From NCBI RefSeq assembly GCF_014651695.1, contig NZ_BMXJ01000004.1, positions 62,001-126,000 of the forward strand: a DNA stretch of 64,000 bases, written 5' to 3'. A program made the translations under genes and the position numbers. The DNA is from Nocardiopsis terrae (GTDB taxonomy: Bacteria; Actinomycetota; Actinomycetes; Streptosporangiales; Streptosporangiaceae). Shown piece by piece: positions 2,029-39,975 of this stretch. Position 1 is the stretch's first letter. Every line of letters starts with the position of its first letter. The notes under the pieces were generated by a model. It did not search any database and was not told the origin of the DNA. It was given only the letters and a program-made list of their open reading frames with translations.

Positions 2029-2034
2029 CGGCCC

Positions 2035-15793: not shown

Positions 15794-15825
15794 CGGGCCC
15801 GCCCCCTTCGTGGGGGGCGGGCCCG
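15794..15825. terminator. Terminator hairpin
   Basis: Arms CGGGCCCGCCCCC and GGGGGCGGGCCCG (13 bp) with a 6-nt loop lie downstream of the glycosidase-like lipoprotein gene on the minus strand. Confidence 0.75.
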
Positions 15826-15882
15826 CAGGTCCCGCTGGAGCGGCGGCCCCGGCCGGACGCCGCCGCTCCGGTGCGGCCCGGG

Positions 15883-23427: not shown

Positions 23428-24533
23428 GCTTGGGCCTTTCGGTTGCCGCGGACGAGCAGGTAGATGAGGTAGAGGGCGCCCAGGCAGCCGGTGACCACAC
23501 CGACCGGGAGCTGGATGTTGGTCAGCAGGTTGCGGGCGATGAGGTCGGCGCCGCAGGTCAGTGTGGCCCCCACCAGGGCGGACAGCAGGACCGGCGGCCT
23601 GGGTGCGCGGGCCAGGCGCAGGGCGATCTGCGGGCAGGCCAGGGAGACGAACAGGATCGGCCCGGCGGCCGAGGTCCCGAAGGCGGCCAGCAGCACGGCC
23701 AGCACCAGCATCGAGGTGCGGGCCCGTTCCAGGGGCAGGCCCAGGCCCCGGGCCACGTCGTCGCTGTAGGAGAGCGTGTCCAGGGTGCGCGCGGCCACCA
23801 GGGCCAGCGGCAGCAGCACAGCCAGGGCCAGGGCGGTGGGCAGGGCGTTGGTCCAGGTCCGCATGGTCAGGCTGCCCGCGATCCACACCATGGCGCGGCC
23901 GGTGTCGGTGACCTCGCCGAGGGTGAGCATCCACAGGGTGATGTTCATCAGGACCGCCGACATGCCCACGCCCACCAGCAGCAGCCGGTAGCCGTCGATG
24001 CCGCCGCGACGGGCCAGGGCGTAGCAGAGCAGGCCGGAGGCCAGTCCGCTCACGAGGGCGACGGCGGGGATGCCGAAGGAGGCCGTGGTGCCGCTGACGA
24101 TGCCGTAGCTGCCGCCGAACGCCAGGACCGCGACCACGCCGGCGCTGGCTCCGTGGGTGACGCCGAGCAGGTCGGGGCTGGCCAGGGGGTTGCGCATGAT
24201 GGTCTGGGTGACGGCCCCGGCCGCGGCCAGGGCGGCTCCGGCCAGCAGACCGACCACCACGCGGGGCATTCGCACCCGCCAGAGCGTGAAGTAGTGCTCG
24301 TAGTCGGTGCCGATGATGTGCGCCCACACCTGGCCGGGGGTCAGGACGGTCTCCCCGATCATGAGGTTGAGCCACACCAGCACGGCCATGACCAGTGTCG
24401 TCACGGCGCCGGCCAGGACGAAGCGCGGCCGCCACGGGAGCGCCACGGGCCCCAGGCGCAGGACCCGGTACCGCAGTGCCAGGCGGGCCAGGGCGCGCTC
24501 GCGGCCGTCGGTGGGGGTGAGGGTGGAGGTCAT
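23424..24533 (-). CDS. Ferric-siderophore ABC transporter permease (FecCD family), second
   Basis: A 369-residue permease with about nine to ten helices. The FecCD motifs are present: RMPRVVVGLLAGAALAAAGA, QTIMRNPLASPDLLGVTHGA, and GPILFVSLACPQIALRLA. ATG 24533 overlaps the first permease's stop (ATGA). It is expected to form a heterodimer with the protein encoded just upstream. Confidence 0.93.
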   Translation of the reverse strand: MTSTLTPTDGRERALARLALRYRVLRLGPVALPWRPRFVLAGAVTTLVMAVLVWLNLMIGETVLTPGQVWAHIIGTDYEHYFTLWRVRMPRVVVGLLAGAALAAAGAVTQTIMRNPLASPDLLGVTHGASAGVVAVLAFGGSYGIVSGTTASFGIPAVALVSGLASGLLCYALARRGGIDGYRLLLVGVGMSAVLMNITLWMLTLGEVTDTGRAMVWIAGSLTMRTWTNALPTALALAVLLPLALVAARTLDTLSYSDDVARGLGLPLERARTSMLVLAVLLAAFGTSAAGPILFVSLACPQIALRLARAPRPPVLLSALVGATLTCGADLIARNLLTNIQLPVGVVTGCLGALYLIYLLVRGNRKAQA

Positions 24534-25612
24534 AGGGAGAGCAGCCTCCGGCGGCGGACGACGTAGATGAAGAACGGGGCACCGATCAGGGCGAGGACCA
24601 CACCGACCTGGAGTTCGCCCGGCGGGGCGAGGAAGCGGCCGAGCACGTCGGCGGTCAGGAGCAGGACCGCGCCCATCAGGGCCGAGTAGGGCAGCAGCCA
24701 CCGGTGGTCGGAGCCGGCGACGGCCCGGGCCACGTGCGGCACGATGAGGCCGACGAAGGCGATCGGCCCGCAGGCGGCCACGGTGGCGCCGGTGAGCAGG
24801 GTGATGGCGACCAGCCCCGTCAGGCGGGCCCGGCCCACCCGGTGTCCCAGGGCGCGTGCGGTGTCCTCGCCCAGGGCCAGGGCGTTGAGCGCGCCGGCGT
24901 TGGACAGGGCGAGGAGGATGCCCACGACCACGAAGGGCAGCAGCTGGGGGATGATGTCGGGGTCGCGGCCCACGAGGGAGCCCACCCGCCAGAACCGGAA
25001 GTTGTCCATGGTGGCCCGGTCCAGCAGGACCACCCCCGAGACCACGGAGTAGCACAGCCAGCTGACGGCGGTCCCGGCCAGGGCCAGGGTGATGGGTGTG
25101 GGTCCGCGTCCGGGGACGGAGCCGATGGCGTAGACGACGACGGCGGCGAGTGCGGCGCCGCCGAAGGCGAGCGCGGACTGGGCCTGGACTGCGGTGATGC
25201 CGGCCAGCGCGATGCCCAGGACGACCGCCAGGGCGGCCCCGAAGGTGACGCCGAGGATGCTGGGGTCGCCGAGGGGGTTGCGGGTGTGGCCCTGCATGAG
25301 TGCGCCGCCCAGTCCCAGGCTGATCCCGGCGAGCACGCCCAGGGCGGTGCGGGGCAGCCGGATCTGGTGGACGATGATGTCGGCCTCGCGGTCGGCGGTC
25401 CCGGCGAGCGCCTGCCACACGGTTACGGGGTCCAGGGCGCGGGCGCCCACGAGGACGCTCGCGGCCACGACCGCTCCCAGGGCGAGCGCCAGGGCCGCCA
25501 GCCCGGCGAGGCGACGTGCGCGTCGGGCCCCGAGTACGCCCCCGCGCAGGTCGGAGGCGTCCGGGGCGGGGGCCGACACGGGGCTCGGGGGCGGCCCGCT
25601 GGTGTCGTGCAC
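24530..25612 (-). CDS. Ferric-siderophore ABC transporter permease (FecCD family), first
   Basis: A 360-residue permease with multiple helices and the matching motifs RLPRTALGVLAGISLGLGGA, GHTRNPLGDPSILGVTFGA and GPIAFVGLIVPHVARA. The GTG at 25612 follows a GGGAGA RBS. It is the first gene of the minus-strand uptake operon and starts 40 bp from the iron box, so it should be repressed by IdeR when iron is sufficient. Confidence 0.92.
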   Translation of the reverse strand: MHDTSGPPPSPVSAPAPDASDLRGGVLGARRARRLAGLAALALALGAVVAASVLVGARALDPVTVWQALAGTADREADIIVHQIRLPRTALGVLAGISLGLGGALMQGHTRNPLGDPSILGVTFGAALAVVLGIALAGITAVQAQSALAFGGAALAAVVVYAIGSVPGRGPTPITLALAGTAVSWLCYSVVSGVVLLDRATMDNFRFWRVGSLVGRDPDIIPQLLPFVVVGILLALSNAGALNALALGEDTARALGHRVGRARLTGLVAITLLTGATVAACGPIAFVGLIVPHVARAVAGSDHRWLLPYSALMGAVLLLTADVLGRFLAPPGELQVGVVLALIGAPFFIYVVRRRRLLSL

Positions 25613-25651
25613 CGAGGTCTCCCATCATGACGAAGGCCAGGTCAACCTTAG

Positions 25652-25670
25652 TTAGGTTTGCCTAGCCACA
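25652..25670. promoter_or_regulatory. IdeR/DtxR-type iron box between divergent uptake operons
   Basis: TTAGGTTTGCCTAGCCACA matches the iron-box consensus in about 14 of 19 positions, with the left arm nearly complete. It lies between the permease operon (minus) and the binding-protein gene (plus), so one site may control both. Confidence 0.7.
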
Positions 25671-25779
25671 CTTTGATGATCTAAGTTTGCCACGTCCCAA
25701 CCAGGAACCACACATCCGGGGTATGTCCCCCGCTGCTCGCATGCCCCAGATCGTCCCCTAACCGATGGAGTACCTGAGA

Positions 25780-26805
25780 ATGAACGCCTGGACCCCGCTG
25801 CGCCGTGCGGGCCTGCCCACCGTCGCGACGGCCGCGGCCGTCGCCCTGCTCACCGCCTGCGGGGCGAGCGGCCCGGCCGAGGACACCTCCGACGGGACCG
25901 GAGGTGAGTCCGCCGAGGGCTACCCGATGACGGTCGAGCACCAGATGGGCGAGACCGAGGTCCCGGCGCCGCCGGAGCGCGTGCTGCCGCTGGACGCCGC
26001 CTTCGTGGACTCCACCCTGGCCCTGGGCGGCAACGTCGTGGGCTTCACCACGTTCTCCGAGGACGTCACCGAGCTGCCGGACTACCTCCGCAACAGCGAG
26101 TGGAACACCGGCACCGCCGACGACGCCGAGCCCGTGGGGCTGCTGTGGGACCTGGACCCGGAGCTGGTGGCCGCCACCGAACCCGACCTGATCCTGTCCG
26201 CCGAGGTCCGCCACGGCGACGGCTACGGCCAGTTCACCGAGATCGCGCCCACGGTCATGTCCGAGACCACCGGTGCGATCTGGAAGGACAACCTGCGCCT
26301 GACCGCCCAGGCCCTGAACGCCGAGGACCGGGCCGAGGAACTGCTCACCGAGTACGAGGAGCGCGCCGCCGCGATCGGCGAGGAGATCGTGGAGTCCAAC
26401 GGCGGTGAGGCCCCGACCGTGTCGGTGGCCCGCTTCGCCGGTGACGAGGAGGGTGTGCGCCTGTACACCCCCACGTCCTACGTCGGCGTGATCCTGGAGG
26501 ACGTGGGCCTGGAGCCCGGCCCCGGCGTGGACACCGGGACCGACGAGATCATCACCTACCACAGCCAGGAGCGCCTGCTCGACCTGGACGCCGACCACGT
26601 GTTCGTGGCCACCTACGACGACGGTGGCGCCGACGGTGTCCAGGAGTCCAAGGAGGAGTACCAGTCCAGCCCGCTGTGGAGCGAGCTGGAGGGTGAGATC
26701 ACCGAGGTCGACGACGGTTACTGGATCTCGGGCGTGGGCCTGATCGCCGCCCACGAGACCCTGGACGACATCGCCGAGATCTTCGGCGTCGACGCCCAGC
26801 GCTGA
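25780..26805 (+). CDS. Siderophore-binding lipoprotein (FepB/FecB type)
   Basis: A 341-residue solute-binding protein. The signal peptide ends in lipobox LLTAC (Cys about 27), followed by an acidic Gly/Ser linker. The mature part has the FecB pattern: APPERVLPLDAAFVDSTLALG at the start, then EPDLILSAEVRHGDGYGQFTEIAPTV. It captures a ferric siderophore outside the membrane and delivers it to the divergently encoded permeases. ATG 25780 is preferred (GGAG nine bases upstream); ATG 25765 would add five residues. It is followed by a decarboxylase gene, so uptake and biosynthesis share this transcript. Confidence 0.9.
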   Translation: MNAWTPLRRAGLPTVATAAAVALLTACGASGPAEDTSDGTGGESAEGYPMTVEHQMGETEVPAPPERVLPLDAAFVDSTLALGGNVVGFTTFSEDVTELPDYLRNSEWNTGTADDAEPVGLLWDLDPELVAATEPDLILSAEVRHGDGYGQFTEIAPTVMSETTGAIWKDNLRLTAQALNAEDRAEELLTEYEERAAAIGEEIVESNGGEAPTVSVARFAGDEEGVRLYTPTSYVGVILEDVGLEPGPGVDTGTDEIITYHSQERLLDLDADHVFVATYDDGGADGVQESKEEYQSSPLWSELEGEITEVDDGYWISGVGLIAAHETLDDIAEIFGVDAQR

Positions 26806-26949
26806 GGTCGGCCCCGCCCGCGTCGGGCCGTGACAGCGACCGGCCCCCAGCGGGCCGCCCCGGGCCCGTGCGGCAGCAGCCGCGCGGGCCCTCGCCCTGC
26901 CGTGCGCCGCGCAGGCGGCACGGCGGGCCCACCAACCCGGAGGGAACAC

Positions 26950-28221
26950 ATGGAACCGCCCCGCTCCTTCGACCACACCCCGGCCCTGACCCCCGAGCGG
27001 ATCCCCCGGGCCGTCCGCGAGGCGGCCCGGCGCCTGGCCGCCGACCCCGGGTCGGGCTACGTCTACGACCCCGCCCTGGCCGCGTCCCGGGCCCGTGAGC
27101 TGCGCGGTGCGCTGCCCGACTGGGCGCGGGTGTACTTCGCGGTCAAGTCCAACGGCTTCGGGGAGGTGCTGGCACACCTGGCCGAGGCGGTCGACGGCTT
27201 CGAGACCGCGTCCCTGCACGAGGCCCGCTCCGCCCTGACGCACCTGCGGGACAGCGCCGGCGGCCACCGCGGCCGTCCGATCGCCGTGAGCGGCCCGGGC
27301 AAGTCCCCCGAGATGCTCGCCGGCCTGACCCGCCTTCGGGCCGAGAGCGGCGCCGAGGTGGTCGTCAACGCCGAGAGCGAGCTGGAGCTGTACCGGGCCT
27401 CGGCGGCCGCCGAGGCCGCGGGCACGGTGCTGCCGGTGACGCTGCGCGTCAACCCCGAGCGGGTCCCGGTGCGCGGTGCGCTGGCCATGGGCGGCACGCC
27501 CTCCCCCTTCGGGCTGCCCGAGCCCCTCGTGGACGGGGCGGTGCGTACCGCCCTCTCCCTGCCCGGCCTGGACCTGATCGGCTTCCACGTGCACGCGGTG
27601 AGCGGCAACACCGACGCCGTCGCCCATGCCGCGTACGTGCGCTGGTGCCTGGAGTGGGCCCGGCGGACGGCTGACGCGCACGGGGTGGACCTGCGGGTGG
27701 TGGACGTGGGCGGCGGGCTCGGCGTCCCCTTCGAGGAGGAGGACGAGGCCTTCGACGTCAAGGGGTTCGGGGCGGCGCTGGCGGAGCTGCCCGACCCGGG
27801 TGTGGAGGTCGTCTTCGAGCCCGGGAGGTGGATCGCCGCCCCCGCCGGGTGGTACGCGGCGCGCGTGACCGACATCAAGTCCGCCTACGGCCTCGACTTC
27901 GCGGTCGTGCGTGGCGGGATCAACCACTTCCAGCTGCCGACCTCGTGGGAGATCCGACACAACTTCGCGGTGGTGGCGGAGCCGTCGTGGCCCGAGGGGA
28001 TGCCCCGGCCCCGGGTGGACGGAGCGTCGGTGACGATCTCGGGCGAGCTGTGCACCCCCGAGGACGTCCTGGCCCGGGACGTACGCGTGGAGGCGCTGCG
28101 CGCGGGCGACACCCTGGTCTTTCCCAACGCGGGCGCCTACGGGCACGAGTTCGCGATGCCCGCGTTCCTGGCCCATCCGTCGGCGCCGAGGGTGAGCGTC
28201 GATTCCTCCGAGCCGGTGTGA
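26950..28221 (+). CDS. Fold-type III PLP-dependent decarboxylase (ornithine/DAP decarboxylase-like, SbnH-like)
   Basis: A 423-residue alanine-racemase-fold decarboxylase. The PLP lysine is K66 in VYFAVKSNGFGE. GFHVHAVSGN at about 211-220, the glycine loop VVDVGGGLGVPF, EPGRW, and the catalytic cysteine C368 in GELCTPEDVLARD complete the site, and NAGAYG ends it. Relatives decarboxylate ornithine, lysine or diaminopimelate. SbnH, which decarboxylates an intermediate of staphyloferrin B, has the same fold. Its location in an iron-regulated unit argues for a siderophore role rather than lysine synthesis. GGAGGG precedes the ATG. A hairpin at 26899-26924 in the 144-nt gap after the binding-protein gene may reduce read-through. 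Confidence 0.88.
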   Translation: MEPPRSFDHTPALTPERIPRAVREAARRLAADPGSGYVYDPALAASRARELRGALPDWARVYFAVKSNGFGEVLAHLAEAVDGFETASLHEARSALTHLRDSAGGHRGRPIAVSGPGKSPEMLAGLTRLRAESGAEVVVNAESELELYRASAAAEAAGTVLPVTLRVNPERVPVRGALAMGGTPSPFGLPEPLVDGAVRTALSLPGLDLIGFHVHAVSGNTDAVAHAAYVRWCLEWARRTADAHGVDLRVVDVGGGLGVPFEEEDEAFDVKGFGAALAELPDPGVEVVFEPGRWIAAPAGWYAARVTDIKSAYGLDFAVVRGGINHFQLPTSWEIRHNFAVVAEPSWPEGMPRPRVDGASVTISGELCTPEDVLARDVRVEALRAGDTLVFPNAGAYGHEFAMPAFLAHPSAPRVSVDSSEPV

Positions 28222-28247
28222 TCCGGATCTCAGGCGACGCACCGACC

Positions 28248-28278
28248 TTGACATGGTTAGGTTAGCCTGGCCTAATTA
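28248..28278 (+). promoter_or_regulatory. Iron-regulated promoter of the siderophore operon
   Basis: A perfect -35 TTGACA (28248-28253) is followed by the iron box TTAGGTTAGCCTGGCCTAA (28257-28275), 16 of 19 identical to the consensus and the best of the three boxes in the window. A weak -10 (CTAATT, about 28272-28277) overlaps its end. IdeR bound here would occlude RNA polymerase. Confidence 0.85.
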
Positions 28279-28362
28279 ATTTGTCCCCGATGTTCCCCTC
28301 ACCCCACCCCGCCCCCACCCCCGGGCGCCCAGCGCGCCGACGACCGAGGAGGCCGCACCATC

Positions 28363-28953
28363 GTGCCCACCGCACCGACGAGCGCAGCGACCCGCCCCCA
28401 GGACACCACGGCCTGGCGCATCGACAACCTCACCGGCACAGACGTCCTGAGCGACCTCGACCCCTGGGTCGAGATCTACGAGGAGGTCTACGCGCACGCC
28501 CTGCACCTGCCCGACCACAACGACCCGCCCTTCCGCGAACGCCTGGCCTTCAGCGCGGCCCGCCCGGGTTTCCGCCTCACCTCCTGCCACGCCGACGGAG
28601 AGCCGGCCGCGTTCGTCTACGGCTACACGCTGCCCACGACCACGGGCTGGTGGGACGGCTTCACCCCGGCACCGGGCGTCGAGGACGACCTCGCACACGA
28701 GTGGCCCGGGCGCACCTTCGGCGTGTGCGAGGCCCTCATCCGCACCCCCTACCGGCGCAGCGGACTGGCCGAGCGCATGGCCCCCTTCCTGCTGAGCGGA
28801 CGCGACGAGGAACGCGCGGCCGGCCTGGTGGCCGAGACCAACACCCACGCGCTGGAGATCTTCCTGCGCAACGGCTGGCGACAGGTGGGCGACCTCGCCC
28901 CGCACGCCGGTTGGCGCCGCCACCACTGCCTGGTCCTGCCGCTGAACGTCTGA
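28363..28953 (+). CDS. GNAT family N-acetyltransferase of the siderophore operon
   Basis: A 196-residue GNAT, first gene of the operon. FGVCEALIRTPYRRSGLAERM gives the acetyl-CoA loop (RRSGLA), and ALEIFLRNGWRQVG the C-terminal strand. By position it should acylate the N-hydroxy-diamine made by the neighbouring hydroxylase. It is however a short, generic GNAT and not the longer IucB/DesC-type acyltransferase normally found in such clusters, so the assignment is contextual. GTG 28363 has a strong GAGGAGG RBS. Confidence 0.8.
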   Translation: MPTAPTSAATRPQDTTAWRIDNLTGTDVLSDLDPWVEIYEEVYAHALHLPDHNDPPFRERLAFSAARPGFRLTSCHADGEPAAFVYGYTLPTTTGWWDGFTPAPGVEDDLAHEWPGRTFGVCEALIRTPYRRSGLAERMAPFLLSGRDEERAAGLVAETNTHALEIFLRNGWRQVGDLAPHAGWRRHHCLVLPLNV

Positions 28954-28988
28954 GAAACCGACCCACGGAAACCAGGTACCACGCGCCC

Positions 28989-30527
28989 ATGCCGATCACC
29001 CCCAGTGCCGAACTGGCCACCCCCAGAGACACCCCGCTCTCTCCCGAAGGACCGCCCCCTCCCCCGCGCCTCGCCGGAGCACCCCGGGGCCCCGCCGCCG
29101 TGGCGGCGCTGGTCGACGACGCCATGCGGACGCTGGCCCTGGCCACCACCGAACGCGGCGGCCCCCTGCCCGCCAGCACCCCGCACGAGGTCGACGCGGC
29201 GGTCCGCGACGCCCTGGCCGCCACCGGCGCCGCCGCGCTGCCCCGCCTGACCGGGGCCCTCACCGCCGGGGCCGCCGACCCCGCCCACCCGCACTGCGCC
29301 GCCCACCTGCACTGCCCGCCCCTGGCCGTGGCCGTGGCCGCCGACACCGTCGCCTCGGTCCTCAACCAGTCCCTGGACTCCTGGGACCAGTCCCCGGCCG
29401 CGACGGCGATGGAGACCCAACTCGTCGCCGAACTCGCCGACCTCGTCGGCTACCACGGCGCGGGGGCCGGCGGTGTGATCACCTCCGGCGGCACCGAATC
29501 CAACCTCACCGCCCTGCTGCTGGCCCGCGACCACGCGCTGGGCGCCGCCGGCACCGACCCCGGACGCCACGGCGTCGCGCGCGCGGCGGGCACCGCGCGG
29601 CCCCGGATCCTGTGCGGCGCCGCCGCCCACTTCTCCGTCCAGCGTTCGGCCGCCCTGCTCGGCCTGGGCGAGGACGCCGTGGTCCCCGTCGAGGTCGACG
29701 CCGGGCACCGGATGCGGGTCGAGGACCTACGCGCGGCCCTGGAACGCGTACGCGCCGACGGCGACCTGCCCGTCGCGATCGTGGCCACCGCCGGGACCAC
29801 CGACCTGGGCGGTATCGACCCCCTGCCCGCGATCGTCCGCCTGGCCCGCGAGTTCGACGTGTGGCTGCACGTGGACGCCGCCTACGGAGGCGGCCTGCTC
29901 TTCTCCCGGCGCCTGCGCCACCTGCTCACCGGCATCGAGGGCGCCCAGTCGATCGGCATGGACCTGCACAAACTCGGCTGGCAACCGGTCGCCGCAGGTG
30001 TGCTACTCACCCGTGAGCGCGCCCTGTTCGCCCCGCTGTCCCGCTCGGTGGACTACCTCAACCCCACCGACGACGAGGAGTCCGGTTACCCGAGCCTGCT
30101 CGGCTACTCCCTGCGCACCACCCGCCGCGCCGACGTGTTCAAGATCGCCGTGACCCTGCGGACCCTGGGCGCGGACGGGCTGGGCGCCATGGTCGAGGCC
30201 TGCCACGACCTGGCCCGCTCCGCCGCGGCCCAGGTCACCGCCGACCCCCGGCTCGACCTGGCCCAGGAACCGTCCCTGACCACGGTGGTCTTCCGCTACC
30301 GGGCCGGGGGCGACGCCGAACACGGCGACCGGGTCAACGCCCGGCTCCGCCGCAGCCTGCTCGAGCAGGGCCGCGCCGTCGTGGGCCGCACCCGCATCGA
30401 GGGCCGGGTGTGGCTCAAACTCACCCTGCTCAACCCCGACACCACCCCCGACGACACCGCCGCGCTGCTCGCCCTGGTCGCCGACGCCGGCGACGCCGAG
30501 CAAGCCCGTCCCCAGGAGTCCCGTTGA
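28989..30527 (+). CDS. PLP-dependent (group II, fold-type I) amino acid decarboxylase, DesA/RhbB-like
   Basis: A 512-residue decarboxylase of the DABA/tyrosine/lysine (DesA) group. SGGTESNL binds the PLP phosphate, HVDAAYGGG carries the ring-contacting Asp, and K328 in MDLHKLGW forms the Schiff base. In hydroxamate siderophore loci such enzymes make cadaverine (DesA) or 1,3-diaminopropane with its partner (RhbB); the substrate cannot be read from sequence alone. The ATG has only a weak RBS and lies 35 nt after the GNAT stop. Its own stop overlaps the next start as TTGA. Confidence 0.9.
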   Translation: MPITPSAELATPRDTPLSPEGPPPPPRLAGAPRGPAAVAALVDDAMRTLALATTERGGPLPASTPHEVDAAVRDALAATGAAALPRLTGALTAGAADPAHPHCAAHLHCPPLAVAVAADTVASVLNQSLDSWDQSPAATAMETQLVAELADLVGYHGAGAGGVITSGGTESNLTALLLARDHALGAAGTDPGRHGVARAAGTARPRILCGAAAHFSVQRSAALLGLGEDAVVPVEVDAGHRMRVEDLRAALERVRADGDLPVAIVATAGTTDLGGIDPLPAIVRLAREFDVWLHVDAAYGGGLLFSRRLRHLLTGIEGAQSIGMDLHKLGWQPVAAGVLLTRERALFAPLSRSVDYLNPTDDEESGYPSLLGYSLRTTRRADVFKIAVTLRTLGADGLGAMVEACHDLARSAAAQVTADPRLDLAQEPSLTTVVFRYRAGGDAEHGDRVNARLRRSLLEQGRAVVGRTRIEGRVWLKLTLLNPDTTPDDTAALLALVADAGDAEQARPQESR

Positions 30528-31852
30528 CCAGTGCACCCTCCCCCGGCGACGGCCACGTGCACGACCTCGTGGGCGTGGGCCTGGGCCCGTTCAACCTGGC
30601 CCTGGCCGCCCTCGCCGACGCCGTCCCCGACCTGTCCGCACACTTCCTGGAGGCCCGGACCTCCTTCTCCTGGCACCCGGGCCTGCTCCTGGAGGGCGCC
30701 CGGCTCCAGGTCCCCTTCCTCGCCGACCTGGTGAGCCTGGTCGACCCCACCAGCCGCTGGTCGTTCCTGTCCTACCTGCGCGCACACGACCGGCTCTTCC
30801 CGTTCTACTTCTCCGAGAACTTCCACGTGCCCCGCCGCGAGTACGACGACTACTGCCGCTGGGTGGCCCACAGCCTGGACTCGTGCACCTTCGACGCCCG
30901 CGTCAGCGCCGTGCGCCACGACTCCGGCGTACTCACCGTGGACCACCTCGACGCGCACGGCCGGCGCTCCAGCGTGCGCACCCGCGCCCTGGTCCTGGGC
31001 ATCGGCACCGAGCCGGTCCTGCCCGGGCCCCTGCGCGCCCTGGAGGGCGACCGGGTCTTCCACGCCGCCCACTACCTGGACCGCGCCCCCGCACTGGCCG
31101 GGGCCGGCGACGTCACGGTGATCGGATCCGGCCAGTCCGGCGCCGAGGTCTTCCTCGACCTGCTGCGCTCGGCCGCGCACCGCGACACCGCCGTGCACTG
31201 GCTGACCCGCTCGCCCGCCTTCGCCCCGATGGAGTACTCCAAACTGGGCCTGGAGCACTTCACCCCGGACTACACCCGCTACTTCCACGCCCTGCCCCAA
31301 CCGGTCAAGGACCGGACCGTGCCCGAGCAGTGGCAGCTGTACAAGGGCATCAGCGCCGACACCATCTCCGAGATCCACGACGTGCTCTACGAACGCGGCA
31401 TCGCCGGCGCCCCCACCGGAGCCAGCCTGCGCGCCCACTGCGAACTGCGGGCGGCCCGGCGCGCGGCGGACGGCTACGAGCTCACCTTCGTCCACCGCGA
31501 GCAGGACCGCGAGTTCACCGTGCGCACCGACGCCGTCGTGGCCGCCTCCGGCTACGCCCAGCGCGACCCCGACTTCCTGGCGCCCGTCGCCGAGTTCCTG
31601 CACACCGACGACCGCGGCCGACCGGTCATCGGCGCCGACCTGCGCCTGTCGGCCGACCCGGCGCTGGAGGCCCCCATCCACGTGCAGAACGCCGAACTGC
31701 ACACGCACGGCGTCGGCGCACCGGACCTGGGGCTGGGCGCCTGGCGCGCGGCCACCATCCTCAACAGCGTCGCCGGACGCACCGTCCACCGACTGCCCGA
31801 ACGCACCGCCTTCACCTCCTTCGGCGCGCCCGCGCCCGGGGCCGGACGGTGA
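30524..31852 (+). CDS. Lysine/ornithine/diamine N-monooxygenase (IucD/RhbE/DesB family)
   Basis: A 442-residue FAD and NADPH-dependent N-hydroxylase that makes the hydroxylamine later acylated to a hydroxamate. The FAD motif GVGLGPFNLALA is at about 17-28, the NADPH motif VIGSGQSGAEV at about 199-209, and AASGY near 345 is the family ATGY-type motif. The start is TTG 30524, overlapping the decarboxylase stop and preceded by AGGAG. Cadaverine, putrescine or diaminopropane are possible substrates given the decarboxylase beside it. Confidence 0.92.
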   Translation: MTSAPSPGDGHVHDLVGVGLGPFNLALAALADAVPDLSAHFLEARTSFSWHPGLLLEGARLQVPFLADLVSLVDPTSRWSFLSYLRAHDRLFPFYFSENFHVPRREYDDYCRWVAHSLDSCTFDARVSAVRHDSGVLTVDHLDAHGRRSSVRTRALVLGIGTEPVLPGPLRALEGDRVFHAAHYLDRAPALAGAGDVTVIGSGQSGAEVFLDLLRSAAHRDTAVHWLTRSPAFAPMEYSKLGLEHFTPDYTRYFHALPQPVKDRTVPEQWQLYKGISADTISEIHDVLYERGIAGAPTGASLRAHCELRAARRAADGYELTFVHREQDREFTVRTDAVVAASGYAQRDPDFLAPVAEFLHTDDRGRPVIGADLRLSADPALEAPIHVQNAELHTHGVGAPDLGLGAWRAATILNSVAGRTVHRLPERTAFTSFGAPAPGAGR

Positions 31853-33144
31853 ACAACCCCTCCTTCCGCCGCCTGTACCTGCTCGTCGTCGTCATGCACG
31901 TGGTCTCGGACGTGGCGCTGAGCCCGTTCTACCCCCAGCTGTTCGAGCGCCTGTTCGGCGTCACGGACGTGGCCGCGACCGGTACCTACATCTGGGTGTG
32001 CCGGGTCACCGCCCTGACCGCGATGCCGTTGTGGGGGCTGGTTGCCCGCCGCCTGACCATGGCCTCGCTGGTCACCTGGGGGCTGGTGGCCGCCGCCGTG
32101 CTGGAGGTGGCGATCGCGCTCTCACCGACCTTCACCGCCTTCACCGCGCTCTCGGCCGTCCAGGTGGCGGTCACCATGTCCTTCGCCCTGGCCTACCCGG
32201 CCTTCGTGGGCAGCGGCGGCGACCGGCTGCGCGACGTGACGGTCTACGCCTACGTGATCAACGTCGGCATCGTGGGGGCCACGGTCCTGGGCGCGGCGAT
32301 CATCGCCCTGCCCGACCCCCGGTGGGGCATCGCCTCGTGCGCGCTGCTCTACCTGGCCCTGGCCGTGCTGTGCCACCGCCACCTGCCCCGGCGCGCCGCC
32401 CCCTCGGCCGAGGCCGGAACCCCGGCCGCTCCCGACACCCGGGCCGGCACCGGAGCCGCGCCCTCCACCCGACCGGGCGCACGGACGCTGGCCGCGCTCG
32501 CGGCGGTGTGCGCCGCCGTGCTGGCCGCCGAGACCGCCCGCCTGGTCGTGCGCCCCTTCTTCACCGTGTACGCCGAGGAGACGGGGGTCGACCCCGCCCT
32601 GTCCGCCGGGCTGTTCCTGCTCCCGCAGCTGACCGTCCTGGCGGTGCTCCCCCTGGCCGGCAGGGCCCACGCCCTGCTGGGGCGGGCGCTGCTCCCGGCA
32701 GCGTGCGCGCTGGCTGCGGCGGGCCTGCTCGTGCAGTTCCTGGCGCCGGGACTGGGCCTGCTCGCCCTGGGACGGGTGGTCTTCGGCGCGGGCCTGGGCC
32801 TGGGACACGTCGCCCTGGACCTGCGGGTGTTCGCGGTGACGCGGGCCCGCGGCCCGGCCTTCGCGGCCGTGGAAACCGTCCGCGTCAGCGCCACACTGCT
32901 CAGCCCGGTCCTGGCCACCGGGCTGGCCTCCGCCGGACTCGGGCTGCCGCTGGCGGCCGGCGCGGCGCTGTTCGCCGTACTCTCGCTGCTGCTCATCGCA
33001 CTTCCCTCGGCACCGGGCGCGCCCCGCACGAACGCCCCCGACCCCGCCCCGGCCCCGGCCGACCCGTCATCGCACCACCCGTCACACCCGACACCTCCCG
33101 CGCCGAGCGCGCGGGCCCGTGAGGAGAGGGACCAGCATGTCTGA
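31849..33144 (+). CDS. MFS transporter, probable siderophore exporter
   Basis: A 431-residue major facilitator with hydrophobic helices in two halves and a Pro/Ala-rich loop between them (around residues 180-205). It starts at GTG overlapping the hydroxylase stop (GTGA) and its end overlaps the next start by 8 nt. Its place between biosynthetic genes makes export of the finished siderophore the likely role. The last 50 residues are Pro/Ala-rich and non-membrane. Confidence 0.87.
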   Translation: MNNPSFRRLYLLVVVMHVVSDVALSPFYPQLFERLFGVTDVAATGTYIWVCRVTALTAMPLWGLVARRLTMASLVTWGLVAAAVLEVAIALSPTFTAFTALSAVQVAVTMSFALAYPAFVGSGGDRLRDVTVYAYVINVGIVGATVLGAAIIALPDPRWGIASCALLYLALAVLCHRHLPRRAAPSAEAGTPAAPDTRAGTGAAPSTRPGARTLAALAAVCAAVLAAETARLVVRPFFTVYAEETGVDPALSAGLFLLPQLTVLAVLPLAGRAHALLGRALLPAACALAAAGLLVQFLAPGLGLLALGRVVFGAGLGLGHVALDLRVFAVTRARGPAFAAVETVRVSATLLSPVLATGLASAGLGLPLAAGAALFAVLSLLLIALPSAPGAPRTNAPDPAPAPADPSSHHPSHPTPPAPSARAREERDQHV

Positions 33145-34912
33145 GACCGCAACGCCCCCCACCGCCGACGTCTGGCGCCGGGCGGGCCGCCGCCTGCTCG
33201 CCCACATGGTCGGCGAGATGGCCTACGAGGAGATGATCACGCCCCGGGGCGAGGGCGCCGACCGCTGGACCCTGGCCGTGGACGACGGGACCGCCTACGC
33301 CTTCACCGCGCGCCGGGGCGGGTTCGGTTCCTGGCACGTGGACCCCGACTCCTTCACCCGCACCACCGACCGGGGGGCGAAGGACGCCTGGGACCCCACC
33401 CTGTTCGTCACCGACGCCCAGAAGACCATCGGGCTGCCCGGTGACTCCCTGGCCGAGGTCGTCCGCGACCTGCTGGCCACGCACACCGCCGACGCCCGAC
33501 TGCTCCAGGCCGTCCCCGACGCGGAGGCCCTGGCCGACCTGCCCTACGAGGACCTGGAGGGCTACCAGACCGGCCACCCCTGCATCTTCGTCAACAAGGG
33601 CCGTCTGGGCTTCTCGGCCGCCGACGCCGAGCGCTACACCCCCGAGGCGCGCGGCGCCTTCCAGCTGGTGTGGATCGCCGTCCACCCCGACCTGGCCCGC
33701 TTCCAGTCCATGGCCGGCACCGACCGCCCGGGCCTGCTCCGGGAGGAACTCGACGACGACCAGCGCACCGGGTTCGCCCGGCGCGTGCGCGAGGCGGGCG
33801 GCGACCCCGACACCTACCAGTGGCTGCCCGTCCACCCCTTCCAGTGGGACGAGGTCATCGCCCCGCTCTTCGCCGCCGAACTCGCCCTGGGCCGCCTGGT
33901 ACGGCTCGGAACCAGCCGCGACCGGTACCGCCCCTTCCAGTCCATCCGCACCCTGATGAACCTGGACCGGCCCGACCGGCTCAACGTCAAGGTGCCGCTG
34001 ATGATCCGCAACACCCTGGTCTGGCGCGGCCTCTCTGGCACCCAGACCGGCTGCGCCCCGCACACCAGCACCTGGCTGCGGACCCTGGCCGAGCGCGACC
34101 CCTACTTCGCCGAGACCGGGGTGATCATGCTCGCCGAGCGGGCCTCGGCGACCGTGCCCCACCCGGTCCTGGACCGGCTGCCCCAGGCCCCCTACCGCTT
34201 CCACGAGCTGCTGGGCACCATCTGGCGCGAGCCGATCCACCGCCACCTGGCCCCCGGCGAGCGGGCCCGCACCATGGCCTGCCTGCTGCTGGAGGGCTCC
34301 GACGGGCGCGCCCTGGTGGCCGAGCTGGTCCAGCGGTCGGGGCTGGAGCCCGTGGAGTGGCTGCGCCGCTTCCTGGGCGCGCTGTTCCCGCCGGTGCTGC
34401 ACTACCTCTACCGCTACGGCGCCTCCTTCACCCCGCACGGGGAGAACGTCGTCCTGGTCTTCGACGAGCACGAGCGGCCCGCCCGCATCGCGCTGAAGGA
34501 CTTCGGGTCCGACGTCGAACTCCTGCCCTTCGACCTGCCCGAGTACGCCGAGATCCCCGACCGCGTGCGCGCCCAGCTGCACCGTTGGGAGCCGGGCGAG
34601 CTGGCCCACTCGGTACTCTCGGCGATCTGCGCCGGTCACCTGCGCTTCCTCGCCGACATCGTCCGGTGCCAGCTCGGCGTGGACCCCGACCAGCTGTGGG
34701 CGCTGGCCCGCGAGCAGGTGCTGGCCTACCAGGAGCGCTTCCCCGAACTGGCCGAGCGCTTCGCCTGGTTCGACCTGCTGGCGCCGCGCGTGGGCCGGGT
34801 CGCGTTGAACCGGGAGCAGCTCATGGGCGGCGGCTTCCACGAGCGCGCCGAACGCGACGCCGAGTTCGACGTCATGCACGGCCAGGTCGACAACCCGCTG
34901 GCCCCGCGATGA
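33137..34912 (+). CDS. NIS siderophore synthetase, IucA/IucC family (first)
   Basis: A 591-residue ATP-dependent synthetase that adenylates a carboxylate and joins it to an amine or hydroxylamine without an NRPS. Conserved motifs are GHPCIFVNKGRLGF (about 146-159), HPFQWD (233-238), the SIRTLMN and KVPLMIRNT segments, and HGEN (434-437), with a FhuF-like C-terminal thumb. All ATP-binding residues appear intact. ATG 33137 is preferred, with GAGGAGAGGG upstream. With the second copy it could perform the two successive condensations on citrate or a similar backbone. Confidence 0.93.
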   Translation: MSETATPPTADVWRRAGRRLLAHMVGEMAYEEMITPRGEGADRWTLAVDDGTAYAFTARRGGFGSWHVDPDSFTRTTDRGAKDAWDPTLFVTDAQKTIGLPGDSLAEVVRDLLATHTADARLLQAVPDAEALADLPYEDLEGYQTGHPCIFVNKGRLGFSAADAERYTPEARGAFQLVWIAVHPDLARFQSMAGTDRPGLLREELDDDQRTGFARRVREAGGDPDTYQWLPVHPFQWDEVIAPLFAAELALGRLVRLGTSRDRYRPFQSIRTLMNLDRPDRLNVKVPLMIRNTLVWRGLSGTQTGCAPHTSTWLRTLAERDPYFAETGVIMLAERASATVPHPVLDRLPQAPYRFHELLGTIWREPIHRHLAPGERARTMACLLLEGSDGRALVAELVQRSGLEPVEWLRRFLGALFPPVLHYLYRYGASFTPHGENVVLVFDEHERPARIALKDFGSDVELLPFDLPEYAEIPDRVRAQLHRWEPGELAHSVLSAICAGHLRFLADIVRCQLGVDPDQLWALAREQVLAYQERFPELAERFAWFDLLAPRVGRVALNREQLMGGGFHERAERDAEFDVMHGQVDNPLAPR

Positions 34913-36792
34913 CCACCACGCCCCTTTCCCCGGAGACACCACCCATGCCCACCACCGTCCCCGCCGAGCTCACCGCCGAGCACTTCGGCCGCGCCAGTGA
35001 CCGCCTGGTCGCCAAGATGCTGGCCGAACTGTGCTTCGAGTACGCGCTGCGCCCCGTCCCCGACGGCCCGGGAGGGGCCGCGCCGCAGGCGCCCGTCGAG
35101 GGCGGGGGGCACCGGTGGCGCGCCCCCGTCGCCCCCGGAGCCGTCTACCTCTTCGAGGGCCGACGCACCACCATGGACGGCTGGCTCGTGCACCCCGGCA
35201 CGGCCCGGCGCGAGGCCGCCGACGGCTCCGTCACCCCCGCCGCGCCCTTCACACTCCTGCGCGACCTGGGTTCGGCCGGGCTCATCGACCCGGCGGTGGA
35301 GGCCTTCACCGTGGGGGAGCTGACCGCCACCCTCAGCGCCGACTGCCGACTGGCCCAGAGCCGCACCGGCGCCGCCGAGCTGGCCGAACTCCCCCACGCC
35401 GAGCTGGAGGGCCACCAGAGCGGGCACCCGTGGATCTTCGCCAACAAGGGCCGGGTCGGTTTCTCCGGCCGCGACCGGGCACAGTTCCCGCCCGAGGCCC
35501 GCCGTCCCCTGCGCCTGCCGTGGATCGCCGTGCACCGCTCCCTCGCCGAGCACCACGGCGTCCCCGGCCTGGACCAGGACGCCCTGATCGCACGGGAGCT
35601 GGACCCCGCCGAGGTACGGCGGTTCACCGGGAGCCTCGACCGGGGCCGCCCCCAGGGCACACCCGCCGCGGAGTACGTGTGGCTGCCGGTCCACCCCTGG
35701 CAGTGGGACGAGGTGGTCGTGCCGCTGTTCGCCGCCGAACTCGCCGCCGGGCTCATCGTGCCCCTGGGCGAGGCCGGCGACGACTACCTGCCCCAGCAGT
35801 CCATCCGCACCTTCACCAACCTCTCCCGACCCGACCGGCACAACGTCAAGGTGTCGCTGGCCATCCTCAACACGATGGTCTACCGGGGCATCCCCACCGA
35901 GCTGTGCCGGGCCGCGCCCGCCAGCACCCGGTGGGTACGCGCCCTGCACGCGGGTGACGCCTTCCTGTCCGAACGCTGCCGGGTCATCCTGCCGGGCGAG
36001 GTCGCCGCCGTGGCCGTGCGCCACCCGGTCCTGGAGGACATCCCCGACGCCCCCTACCGGCACCGGCAGCTGCTCGGCGCGCTGTGGCGCGAACCCGTCA
36101 CCGCCCAGCTGGACGAAGGGGAGCGGGCCCGCACCCTGGCGGCGCTGCTGCACGTGGACGGCCAGGGGCGGGCCTTCACCGCCGAACTCGTCCAGCGCTC
36201 CGGGTTGGCGGCCGAGGAGTGGCTGCGCGCCCTCCTCGCAGCGGTCCTGCCGCCCGTACTGCACCTGCTCTACCGCTACGGGCTGGCGTTCAACCCGCAC
36301 GGCGAGAACGCCATCGTGGTCTTCGACGGCCGCGACCGGCCCGCGCGGCTGGCGGTCAAGGACTTCGTCGACGACATGAAACTGCTGGACACCGACCTGC
36401 CCGAGTACGCCTCCCTGCCCCGCGAGGCGCTGGGTGTGCTCATGCGCTTCGACGCCGCCGAGCTGACCTCCTCGGTCGCCAAGTCCCTGCTGGTCGGGCA
36501 CTTCCGATACCTGGCGCCGCTGCTCCAGGACCACCTGGGGGTGGCCGAGGAGCGCTTCTGGGAACTGGTCCGCGCCGAGGTGCTGCGCTACCAGGAGGAG
36601 TTCCCGGAGCTGGCCGAGCGCTTCACGCTGTTCGACCTGCTCGCGCCCGAGTTCGAGCGGGTCTGCCTGAACCGGGAGCGGCTGCTGGGCGGCGGCTACC
36701 ACGACCGCGCCGAACGCGACGCCGAGTTCCACCTGGACGCGCCGGCGATCCCCAACCCCCTGCACCGACCCGCCCGGGAGGCCGCCGCGTGA
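34909..36792 (+). CDS. NIS siderophore synthetase, IucA/IucC family (second)
   Basis: A 627-residue paralogue of the preceding gene product, with GHPWIFANKGRVGF (172-185), HPWQWD (262-267) and HGEN (464-467). The ATG overlaps the previous stop as ATGA; ATG 34945, with GGAG nine bases upstream, is an equally possible start and would remove 12 low-complexity residues. The two proteins differ enough in their N-terminal 130 residues that they probably act on different intermediates, as IucA and IucC do in aerobactin. Confidence 0.93.
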   Translation: MTTTPLSPETPPMPTTVPAELTAEHFGRASDRLVAKMLAELCFEYALRPVPDGPGGAAPQAPVEGGGHRWRAPVAPGAVYLFEGRRTTMDGWLVHPGTARREAADGSVTPAAPFTLLRDLGSAGLIDPAVEAFTVGELTATLSADCRLAQSRTGAAELAELPHAELEGHQSGHPWIFANKGRVGFSGRDRAQFPPEARRPLRLPWIAVHRSLAEHHGVPGLDQDALIARELDPAEVRRFTGSLDRGRPQGTPAAEYVWLPVHPWQWDEVVVPLFAAELAAGLIVPLGEAGDDYLPQQSIRTFTNLSRPDRHNVKVSLAILNTMVYRGIPTELCRAAPASTRWVRALHAGDAFLSERCRVILPGEVAAVAVRHPVLEDIPDAPYRHRQLLGALWREPVTAQLDEGERARTLAALLHVDGQGRAFTAELVQRSGLAAEEWLRALLAAVLPPVLHLLYRYGLAFNPHGENAIVVFDGRDRPARLAVKDFVDDMKLLDTDLPEYASLPREALGVLMRFDAAELTSSVAKSLLVGHFRYLAPLLQDHLGVAEERFWELVRAEVLRYQEEFPELAERFTLFDLLAPEFERVCLNRERLLGGGYHDRAERDAEFHLDAPAIPNPLHRPAREAAA

Positions 36793-38216
36793 GTGACCTG
36801 ATCGGCGACGGCCTGCCGCCCCTGACCGAGACCCTGCCGCCCTCCCCTCCTCCGCCGCCCTTCCCGGTCCCCCTGGACCGGCTGGGCGCCGACGCCGCCT
36901 CGGGCGCGATCACCGACGTGATCGTCGCCCTGCCCGACGTGCAGGGACGGGTCCAGGGCAGCAGGGTGCGCCCGGGCGACTTCACCGACCGGATCATCCG
37001 GGACGGCTTCGGGGCCTGCCTGTACCTGCTGGCCACCGACGTGGAGATGGAGGCGCGGCCGGGGTACGCCACCGACCCGTGGGGCGGGGGTCTGGGCGAC
37101 TTCGACATCGTGCCCGACCTGTCCACCCTGCGTTACCTGCCCTGGGACCCGGGGACGGCACTCGTCCTGGGCGACGCGCACGGCGCCGACGGGGCGCCCG
37201 TGGCCGTCGCGCCCCGCCAGGTGCTGCGGACCCAGCTGGACCGGCTCGCCGAACGCGGATGGCGGGCCCTGGCCGGAACTGAACTGGAGTTCCTGGTGTT
37301 CCGGGACGACTACCAGAGCGCGTTCGAGTCGCACTACCGCGGTCTGACCCCGGCCACGCGGTTCAACTCCGACTACGCGGTGCCCGAGGTCACCGAGATC
37401 GACCCGCTCATGCGGCGCATCCGCACCGCGATGGAACGCACCGGCATGACGGTGGAGTCGGCGCGCGGGGAGTGCCACCCGGGCCAGTACGAGATCGTGT
37501 TCCGCTACGACGACGCGCTGCGCGCCTGCGACAACCACGTCGTGTACAAGGCGGGTGCCCGTGCGCTGGCCGCCCAGGCCGGGGTGGCGCTGACCTTCAT
37601 GGCCAAGTACGACGAGGGCGAGGGCAACTCCTGCCACGTGCACCTGTCCCTGCGCGACGAGGACGGCGACCCGGTCTTCGCCGACGACGGGACGGGCCGG
37701 TACGGGATGTCGAAGTACATGGAGCACTTCGTGGCGGGCCAGCTCGCCTGCATGCGGGACTTCGCGCTGGTGTACGCCCCGAACGTGAACTCGTTCAAGC
37801 GGCTGTCCCCGCAGGCCTACGCGCCCAGCGGCATCGCCTGGGGGCTGGACAACCGGACCTGCCCGGTGCGGGTGGTGGGCTCGGGGGAGTCGGCGCGGAT
37901 CGAGTTCCGGGTGCCGGGCGGCGACGCCAACCCCTATCTGGCGGTGGCGGCGATCATCGCCTCGGGGCTGTACGGCGTCGAGCAGGCGCTGCCGCTGCCC
38001 GAGCCGACGGCGGGCAACGCCTTCGACCAGGAGACGCCCCGGCTCCCGGCCTCCCTGGAGGAGGCGGTGCTGGCGTGGGAGGGCAGTGAGATCGCCCGCG
38101 CCTGCTTCGGACCGGACGTGGTGCGGCACTACGCCGCCGCGGGTCGCGCCGAGTTGGCGGCGTTCTCGGCCACGGTCACCGACTTCGAGCGCCGCCGACA
38201 CTTCGAACGGGGCTGA
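36789..38216 (+). CDS. Glutamine synthetase-like ligase (PuuA/FluG type) in the siderophore operon
   Basis: A 475-residue GS-superfamily ligase. Metal and substrate residues are present: E165 and E167 in ELEFLVF, E228 and E235 in ECHPGQYE, H283 in CHVHLSL, NSFKRL, and E372/R374 in EFRVPGGDANPYL. The C-terminus (HYAAAGRAELAAF, VTDFERRRHFE) is that of the gamma-glutamyl-amine synthetase branch. No NLYxLPP adenylylation site is seen. The N-terminal 35 residues are proline-rich. GTG 36789 overlaps the synthetase stop (GTGA), so it is the operon's last gene. It could glutamylate a diamine or a siderophore precursor; this is inference, and no such step is part of the known NIS pathways named here. 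Confidence 0.88.
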   Translation: MSDLIGDGLPPLTETLPPSPPPPPFPVPLDRLGADAASGAITDVIVALPDVQGRVQGSRVRPGDFTDRIIRDGFGACLYLLATDVEMEARPGYATDPWGGGLGDFDIVPDLSTLRYLPWDPGTALVLGDAHGADGAPVAVAPRQVLRTQLDRLAERGWRALAGTELEFLVFRDDYQSAFESHYRGLTPATRFNSDYAVPEVTEIDPLMRRIRTAMERTGMTVESARGECHPGQYEIVFRYDDALRACDNHVVYKAGARALAAQAGVALTFMAKYDEGEGNSCHVHLSLRDEDGDPVFADDGTGRYGMSKYMEHFVAGQLACMRDFALVYAPNVNSFKRLSPQAYAPSGIAWGLDNRTCPVRVVGSGESARIEFRVPGGDANPYLAVAAIIASGLYGVEQALPLPEPTAGNAFDQETPRLPASLEEAVLAWEGSEIARACFGPDVVRHYAAAGRAELAAFSATVTDFERRRHFERG

Positions 38217-38225
38217 GGAGCCCGC

Positions 38226-38261
38226 CCGTCTCCCGCCGGAAGCCGTCCCGGCGGGAGACGG
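38226..38261. terminator. Bidirectional terminator
   Basis: CCGTCTCCCGCCGG pairs with CCGGCGGGAGACGG (14 bp) around an 8-nt loop, between the ends of the siderophore operon and menD. Confidence 0.8.
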
Positions 38262-38265
38262 TGCC

Positions 38266-39975
38266 TCACGCGACCGCCGCGTCCACCGCCCCCTGGATAC
38301 GGCGGCGCAGGATCGCGCTGTCGGCCCGCGTCGTGCACACCTCCACGAGGCGCAGGCCCTCGCCCAGAAGCGCCTTGGGCAGGTCGGTGGCCCACTCCAC
38401 GCGGGTGTAGGGCAGGTCCGCCACGGCGGCCACCCGCTCCATCGACACCCCGTGCGGGGTCCCGAAGACCCGCTCGAAGTCGGGGTGGCCCGCCTGCTCC
38501 AGCCCCGAGAAGATCCCGCCCCCGTCGTTGTTGACCACGACCACCGCCAGGTCCGGGCGCGGCTCACCGGGACCGATGATCAGGCCGTTCTGGTCGTGCA
38601 GCACCGCCAGGTCGCCGAGCAGGGCGTAGGAGCGCCCCCCGCCCTCGGCCTGGTGGGCCAGGGCCGCCCCGACCGCCGTCGACACCGTCCCGTCGATCCC
38701 GCTCACACCCCGGTTGCCCAACAGGCGCACCCCGCAGCGGGCCCCCATCGTGGCGTCGAGGTCCCGGATAGGCATGCTGGACCCGGCGAACAGCAGCGAA
38801 CCGGCACCCAGCTGGGAAACCAGGTCACGGGCCAGACGTGGTTCGGAGAGCGCCTCGTCGGCGTCCAGCACCCCGTCGACCGCGGCCCGGGCGGCGGCCT
38901 CCGCGCGCGCCCACTCCCGGGACCACCCGGTACGCCGCGGGCCGTCCGGGTCCGCCCCGGCCGGCGGCGCCACCGACGCCACCACGTCGGTGGCGGTCCG
39001 TGCGGGGTCGGAGAAGTCGTTGGCCAGACTCGCCGCGGGGTCGCCCACCGCGCCCGCGGTCACCACCACGTGCCGTTCGGCGCTGCGCAGGAAGGCCAGG
39101 ATCTGCCGGGAGAGGTTGGGGCGGCCCACGCTCACGACCAGTTCGGGGGCGTGCGCGGCGGTGAATCCGGGCGAGGCCAGCAGCTGGCGGTAGGCGGAGA
39201 CCGCTCCGGCCCGGCGGGCGTTGGAGGTGGGTTCGGCGAGCAGGGGCCAGCCGGTCAGCTCGGCCAGGGCCAGGAAGGGCACCGGGTCGTAGTCGCCGTC
39301 ACCGCACACGATGACGCCCCGCTCCACGTCGGGCAGGGTGAGAGGGGCCGGTTCGGTGGCGGGCCCGGAGCGGGAGATCCACGGTCGGCCGTCCGGCCGA
39401 CCGTCCAGGGGGGCCGTCCAGGTCGGTGCGTCCGTGGTCTCGTCCGGGGTGAGCGGCTCGCGGAAGGCCACGTTGAGGTGGACCGGGCCTGGGCGGCCGC
39501 CGATGGCCGCCGCCCAGGCGCGGCAGCTCAGGGAACGCCAGTACGCCACCATCCCCGGGGCGGGGTCGGGGGTGCCGACCTCGGTGAACATGCGCACCGC
39601 GGCGCCGTACAGACCGATCTGGTCCGCGGTCTGGTTGGCCCCGGTGCCGCGCAGCTCCGGCGGCCGGTCCGCGGTGAGCACCAGCAGCGGGACCGCGCTC
39701 TCGTCAGCTTCCATCACCGCCGGGTGGAAGTTGGCGGCCGCAGTCCCGGAGGTGCACACCACCGCCACCGGCCGGCGCGAGGCCCGGGCCAGCCCCAGGG
39801 CGAGGAAGGAGGCGGAACGCTCGTCCACCCGAACGTGGACCCGGATCCCGGGGTGGGCGACCAGGGCCAGCGCCAGTGGGGTCGAGCGCGACCCGGGCGC
39901 GACGACGGCCTCGGCCAGCCCGCAGCGGGCCAGTTCGTCGACGAGGACCCGCGCCAGGGCGGTAGACGGATTCAT
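38266..39975 (-). CDS. menD: SEPHCHC synthase (2-succinyl-5-enolpyruvyl-6-hydroxy-3-cyclohexene-1-carboxylate synthase)
   Basis: A 569-residue ThDP-dependent enzyme joining isochorismate to the succinic semialdehyde unit from 2-oxoglutarate. The N-terminal part carries VVAPGSRSTPLALAL and VVCTSGTAAANFHPAV, including the catalytic Glu region before it (VRVDERSASF). The ThDP-binding domain has GNRGVSGIDGTVSTAVGAA and NNDGGGIFSGL. It lies 149 nt after menC on the same strand; a GATACT-like -10 upstream suggests a separate promoter as well. Confidence 0.94.
   Translation of the reverse strand: MNPSTALARVLVDELARCGLAEAVVAPGSRSTPLALALVAHPGIRVHVRVDERSASFLALGLARASRRPVAVVCTSGTAAANFHPAVMEADESAVPLLVLTADRPPELRGTGANQTADQIGLYGAAVRMFTEVGTPDPAPGMVAYWRSLSCRAWAAAIGGRPGPVHLNVAFREPLTPDETTDAPTWTAPLDGRPDGRPWISRSGPATEPAPLTLPDVERGVIVCGDGDYDPVPFLALAELTGWPLLAEPTSNARRAGAVSAYRQLLASPGFTAAHAPELVVSVGRPNLSRQILAFLRSAERHVVVTAGAVGDPAASLANDFSDPARTATDVVASVAPPAGADPDGPRRTGWSREWARAEAAARAAVDGVLDADEALSEPRLARDLVSQLGAGSLLFAGSSMPIRDLDATMGARCGVRLLGNRGVSGIDGTVSTAVGAALAHQAEGGGRSYALLGDLAVLHDQNGLIIGPGEPRPDLAVVVVNNDGGGIFSGLEQAGHPDFERVFGTPHGVSMERVAAVADLPYTRVEWATDLPKALLGEGLRLVEVCTTRADSAILRRRIQGAVDAAVA

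Follow-up and report, generated by a model that had tools for sequence, protein, structure and literature searches.

Why does an iron-regulated siderophore operon end in a gene of the glutamine synthetase family? The question is raised by a 64 000-nucleotide stretch of the Nocardiopsis terrae genome (contig NZ_BMXJ01000004.1, positions 62 001–126 000; hereafter the window), in which a cluster for a nonribosomal peptide synthetase-independent siderophore (NIS), spanning ∼24530–38216, is closed by a glutamine-synthetase-like (GS) ligase. NIS pathways are built from a small kit of decarboxylase, hydroxylase, acetyltransferase, and synthetases. Comparison of gene content shows that in most GS-bearing clusters this ligase and a second, SbnH-like decarboxylase occupy the place that the acetyltransferase holds in other NIS operons. 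The reading we favor, at a confidence slightly short of even, is a dedicated NIS pathway whose hydroxamate arm gets its acyl portion from a ligase of the GlnA4 family working with a decarboxylase derived from SbnH.

The initial annotation, made from this DNA alone, described seven coupled genes behind one strong iron box. All seven are present on the plus strand in the order given, from a GNAT acetyltransferase through a group II decarboxylase, a flavin N-monooxygenase, an exporter of the major facilitator superfamily (MFS), and two IucA/IucC synthetases (NIS-A and NIS-B) to GS, with overlaps of 4–8 bases or gaps of 32–35 bases at their junctions and with the GTGA at 36789–36792 common to NIS-B and GS, as annotated. 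The box was likewise upheld by consensus matching and shuffled controls (Table 1) and is kept in 12/12 genus loci scanned. The cluster extends further upstream than the seven genes: a binding protein, the SbnH-like decarboxylase, and a second iron box had been missed, as had the exchange of an acetyltransferase for GS plus decarboxylase. The order FecCD permease, binding protein, SbnH-like decarboxylase, GNAT, group II decarboxylase, monooxygenase, MFS, NIS-A, NIS-B, and GS is kept in all 12 genus loci, which were read at length, the MFS match being too weak to list in some. A whole-genome search found no IucA/IucC genes in the source genome beyond these two. DmdR/IdeR-type boxes also precede several such clusters in other genera, and the weaker second box lies at the same position in 11 of 12 genus relatives scanned; judged by its predicted box, the cluster is iron-regulated.

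Linkage of GS to this cluster extends well beyond the source genome. NIS-B occurs in 17 of 40 Nocardiopsis genomes (77–92% identity), and GS (83–94%) directly adjoins it in all 17; at the family level, the next-best GS genes (62–73%) adjoin a NIS synthetase. Among 395 genomes sampled class-wide, 30 matched the SbnH-like decarboxylase strongly (>500 bits in every case), with Nocardiopsis, Nonomuraea, Streptomyces, and Frankia among their genera, and 30/30 also carry GS, located next to a NIS synthetase wherever the locus was read. GS and decarboxylase lie on separate contigs in six draft assemblies, and three genomes missing from the class list of GS genes (G382, G490, and G565) do carry one. 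Among 80 named loci found via the decarboxylase, 60 hold GS, NIS, and monooxygenase genes together; the genera represented are Nocardiopsis, Streptomyces, Nonomuraea, Actinomadura, Streptosporangium, Frankia and relatives, Tsukamurella, Crossiella, Kineococcus, Blastococcus, Geodermatophilus, and others. Seven GS-less loci (L170, L173, L182, L189, L203, L207, and L213) were rejected as counter-examples, reflecting locus or contig ends or having GS at the edge or elsewhere in the genome. Co-occurrence and position thus mark GS as an obligate, co-inherited member of an iron-regulated actinobacterial cluster, which agrees with its annotation as an operon gene.

The exchange of acyl-forming genes was followed in the same comparisons. 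All eight GS-less NIS operons examined lack the SbnH-like decarboxylase as well, and all have an IucB-type acetyltransferase. Of 64 complete clusters with GS, decarboxylase, and monooxygenase, 38 lack both IucB and the Nocardiopsis-type GNAT; the GNAT is present in 24 (Nocardiopsis and one Streptomyces/Actinomadura architecture) and IucB in two, both from Crossiella (L193 and L209) and rearranged in gene order. No PF13523 (IucB/RhbD-type) acyltransferase was detected in the window cluster or anywhere in the source genome, nor genome-wide in four of the six Frankia-type (f17) genomes tested, absence being scored by a pair of cluster profiles and a single Pfam family. All genes of L109, a cluster of the Frankia type, could be assigned: a diaminobutyrate transaminase (absent from the window cluster), a decarboxylase, two NIS synthetases, a monooxygenase, GS, and a divergent SbnH-like decarboxylase, with no acyltransferase. 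Because a hydroxamate needs an acylated N-hydroxy-amine, GS is the obvious remaining candidate for that step in L109. In Frankia-type loci (L108–L111 and L114), an RND/MmpL-type exporter after GS replaces the MFS protein, accompanied in most by a TetR-type regulator. A separate set of Streptomyces-type NIS clusters (L101–L106) has IucB and mostly lacks a monooxygenase in the locus, L104 being an exception; these may correspond to the rhizobactin-like orphan cluster of PMC3848822, which apparently still lacks a product.

Alignment of GS confirmed that its catalytic core is intact, as the initial annotation had stated, and so are its glutamate-site motifs. At the ammonium site, an aromatic residue (Y or F) stands in for Glu327, as in GlnA4, the γ-glutamylethanolamide synthetase that is the closest characterized relative and for which replacement of this glutamate and an ethanolamine cluster have been described in S. 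coelicolor (PMC6529630). The label “PuuA/FluG-type” is imprecise, identity to Escherichia coli PuuA being only 29%. A role as a true glutamine synthetase was rejected on the loss of the ammonium-site glutamate and the presence of two other GS genes in the genome. Family membership gives good support to a γ-glutamyl amide or hydroxamate as the predicted product.

On this basis a pathway can be proposed. By family, the group II decarboxylase would make a diamine, which the monooxygenase would N-hydroxylate. GS would then likely activate the γ-carboxyl of glutamate with ATP and transfer it to the N-hydroxy-diamine, giving a γ-glutamyl hydroxamate or γ-glutamyl amide. The pairing of the two genes and the residue comparison below suggest that the second decarboxylase strips the free α-carboxyl, leaving a 4-aminobutyryl (GABA) unit in the manner of BtrK. 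The two IucA/IucC synthetases would be expected, again by family, to join the resulting amine or amines to citrate; the MFS protein would export the product and the FecB/FecCD system would import its iron complex. In Nocardiopsis the GNAT may still acetylate one arm, yielding a mixed siderophore. A more specific version, which we put forward only as a possibility, is that the hydroxamate itself is made by GS instead of by a GNAT that depends on acyl-CoA: GS would γ-glutamylate the N-hydroxy-diamine, and decarboxylation to a GABA-hydroxamate would follow. This would be a second route to siderophore hydroxamates and, with the same tentativeness, would reach at least Nocardiopsis, Nonomuraea, Actinomadura, Streptomyces, Frankia, Tsukamurella, Crossiella, Kineococcus, Blastococcus, and Geodermatophilus.

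The SbnH-like decarboxylase provides a test of the second half of this proposal. Its best solved relative is SbnH (6KNH; 318 bits, against 222 bits for BtrK), in which R304, S308, W309, K347, and H379 bind the citryl group or are close to it, according to the comparison of FigC with SbnH (PMC7857480). The window protein has Q368, E411, and M443 at the positions of R304, K347, and H379. Across GS-linked copies (counts that include some genomes twice), the five positions read Q-S-W-E-M in 79, A-S-W-E-L in 13, and A-T-E-E-L in three (Kineococcus, Blastococcus, and Geodermatophilus), one further copy being cut short. The unchanged R-S-W-K-H is found in the decarboxylases of GS-less clusters with multiple NIS genes (L244–L246) and in a second Tsukamurella copy (L175). 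The invariant glutamate at the K347 position is shared with BtrK (CTPED), a member of the same clade that converts a γ-glutamyl group to GABA in butirosin formation (PMC7857480). Loss of R304, K347, and H379 together with this glutamate speaks against a citryl substrate and favors one whose far end is neutral or cationic, a γ-glutamyl-diamine for instance; with the internal control clusters, it disfavors an ordinary citryl-diaminopropionate decarboxylase. Unlike the situation proposed here, BtrK acts on a carrier-protein thioester supplied by another ligase; in this cluster GS is the proposed partner and no carrier protein was seen.

The control loci are of interest in themselves. L244, L245, and L246 (from G047, G530, and G632) combine several NIS matches with an SbnH-like decarboxylase that keeps the citrate contacts, have neither GS nor hydroxylase, and probably represent staphyloferrin-B-like pathways. 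In L175 (Tsukamurella ocularis, 1694–17462), a citryl-type SbnH decarboxylase cluster with divergent NIS genes sits beside a GS-type cluster, which makes this locus a natural setting in which to study the change of decarboxylase substrate.

Several observations weigh against the acyl-building proposal. The GNAT is present in Nocardiopsis and in about one-third of GS clusters, so GS is not the sole acylating enzyme there; an acyltransferase of another family, encoded elsewhere in the genome, could serve; and the nitrogen acylated by GS could, compatibly with sequence, be either the hydroxylamine or the primary amine. Most GS-linked copies keep S308 and W309 of the SbnH pocket, and no solved relative is closer than SbnH, leaving room for a modified citryl substrate. 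The last point, together with the fact that the siderophore enzymes of this clade in PMC7857480 all use citryl-amino acids, would also suit a pathway in which GS adds a γ-glutamyl group (+129 Da) that is retained on a siderophore amine, while the decarboxylase separately acts on a citryl-amino acid, like SbnH, AcsE, and FigC. We regard this as unlikely, though a serious contender: R304, K347 (to Glu), and H379 are replaced in GS-linked copies and kept in the GS-less three-NIS controls, and GS and decarboxylase are gained or lost jointly. A γ-glutamyl-amine-type ligase as a dedicated step, in line with the initial annotation, is supported, whereas a simple added tag of 129 Da fits poorly, the presence of GS and the decarboxylase in place of the acetyltransferase pointing to the building of an acyl unit.

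The invariant glutamate could also be explained in another way. It stands in place of K347, beside the catalytic Cys loop, and related decarboxylases use an acidic residue there for basic side chains. On this reading the second decarboxylase would act directly on a free basic amino acid to supply another diamine or amine, so that citrate would bear two unlike arms, one of them modified by GS. This seems to us improbable, given that the nearest relative in the clade uses an acylated amino acid, that a diamine-forming decarboxylase is already encoded in the cluster, and that the constant pairing of GS with the SbnH-like protein would be left unexplained.

Relatives of GS outside siderophore clusters bear on whether the ligase belongs to catabolism. 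The nearest paralogues (52–56% identical) are flanked by a short-chain dehydrogenase/reductase (SDR), an aldehyde dehydrogenase (ALDH), a permease, a FadR-type regulator, and a γ-Glu-GABA hydrolase (PuuD-like), named by eye from translations and family resemblance; this gene set fits the published ethanolamine cluster of GlnA4 (PMC6529630) and places the siderophore-linked GS in the same subfamily. In the tree, the GlnA4-type paralogues form one 100/100 clade with the siderophore-linked GS outside it, and GlnA and PuuA are distant; a single grouping of siderophore-linked GS is neither contradicted nor firmly supported. Twenty positions, several of them beside the active site, are invariant within each sampled group yet differ between the two, including HPGQYE for NLGQHE and D.GEGNSCH for N.REGNSCH (siderophore GS versus GlnA4 group). 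Several genomes carry both paralogues; the source genome has no GlnA4 paralogue, its other GS genes numbering only two. None of the ALDH, SDR, permease, or PuuD-like hydrolase genes of the GlnA4 sets was found in siderophore clusters. Strict linkage, tree position, and neighborhood led us to reject a stray housekeeping or polyamine-catabolism gene. Two outcomes named beforehand as refuting the initial annotation, GS being absent or unlinked in most relatives with the operon and GS clustering tightly with polyamine-catabolism genes, were not observed. That GS is an amine-detoxification or precursor-storage enzyme that became operon-linked, as the catabolic role of GlnA4 and its ALDH, SDR, permease, and PuuD-like amidohydrolase neighbors might suggest, is very improbable: no such partners accompany it, its place in the tree is outside the GlnA4 clade, its substitutions near the active site are fixed, every relative examined has it within a NIS operon, and several genomes keep both paralogues. 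The self-protection or storage function first suggested is disfavored, since no PuuD-like hydrolase travels with GS and the decarboxylase always does.

Set against known pathways, the cluster shares with those for schizokinen, arthrobactin, and rhizobactin 1021 a diaminobutyrate- or lysine-type decarboxylase, a diamine N-monooxygenase, two IucA/IucC synthetases, an exporter, and an iron box, and the diaminobutyrate transaminase of Frankia-type GS clusters is a further shared trait. GS clusters differ from these in lacking the IucB/RhbD-type acetyltransferase (except in Crossiella) and in having GS and an alanine-racemase-fold decarboxylase instead, in support of the initial view that no classical siderophore pathway matches. 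An alanine-racemase-fold pyridoxal phosphate (PLP) decarboxylase within a NIS cluster recalls staphyloferrin B, from which the present system departs in its lost citrate-contact residues, its hydroxylase and GS, and its two rather than three NIS enzymes. The operon context likewise separates GS from GlnA4, which serves ethanolamine catabolism. Kineochelins, Streptomonospora desferrioxamines, and triabactin were considered as matching systems and found to be different. We found no description of this gene set, its product, or its pathway in the open literature; most subscription chemistry papers fell outside the search, so novelty is not proven.

A ligase of nitrogen metabolism and a repurposed SbnH-like decarboxylase appear, then, to replace an acetyltransferase in a gene set widespread in actinobacteria, the nitrogen-fixer Frankia among them. 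If the acyl-building proposal is true, a whole group of environmental siderophores would carry an unrecognized GABA- or glutamyl-hydroxamate acyl unit, signatures of GS and decarboxylase would let genome miners predict that unit, and the making of metal-binding groups would be added to the roles of GS-family enzymes.

Table 1. Genes and regulatory elements of the NIS-siderophore cluster, in window coordinates
Feature	Position	Strand	Basis and remarks
FecCD-type ferric-siderophore permease	24530..25612	-	Divergent from cluster; Pfam FecCD 301 bits; syntenic in 12 genus loci
Second, weaker iron box TTAGGTTTGCCTAGCCACA	25652..25670	+	4 consensus mismatches; between divergent uptake genes, facing FecCD permease
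Ferric-siderophore substrate-binding lipoprotein (FecB/Peripla_BP_2)	25765..26805	+	Pfam 61 bits; NCBIfam ferric dicitrate substrate-binding protein
Alanine-racemase-fold PLP decarboxylase, SbnH-like, citrate-binding residues altered	26830..28221	+	PDB 6KNH (SbnH) 318 bits
Main iron box TTAGGTTAGCCTGGCCTAA	28257..28275	+	DmdR/IdeR-type; 2 consensus mismatches; 0 expected in shuffles
GNAT acetyltransferase, not IucB/DesC type	28363..28953	+	Pfam PF13480 23 bits; no PDB relative
Group II PLP decarboxylase, diamine-forming (L-2,4-diaminobutyrate- or lysine-type)	28989..30527	+	Pfam PF00282 202 bits; RhbB model 393 bits, cut-off of 900 not reached
Flavin N-monooxygenase of diamine	30524..31852	+	Pfam PF13434 381 bits; TIGR04439 445 bits, under its cut-off
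MFS exporter	31849..33144	+	Pfam MFS_1 36 bits
NIS synthetase A (IucA/IucC + FhuF-like domains)	33137..34912	+	Pfam PF04183 239 bits
NIS synthetase B (IucA/IucC + FhuF-like domains)	34945..36792	+	Pfam PF04183 240 bits
GS-like γ-glutamyl ligase, last operon gene	36789..38216	+	Pfam PF00120 329 bits; motifs and tree
Hairpin 3′ of GS, ahead of convergent menD	38214..38268	+	-38.6 kcal/mol, z -5.2

Two smaller features of the locus complete its description. The hairpin that follows GS is a probable terminator. In the SbnH-like open reading frame, ∼70 residues precede the region of homology (window 26830–27030); its GTG start is probably placed too early, and the true start may lie further 3′.

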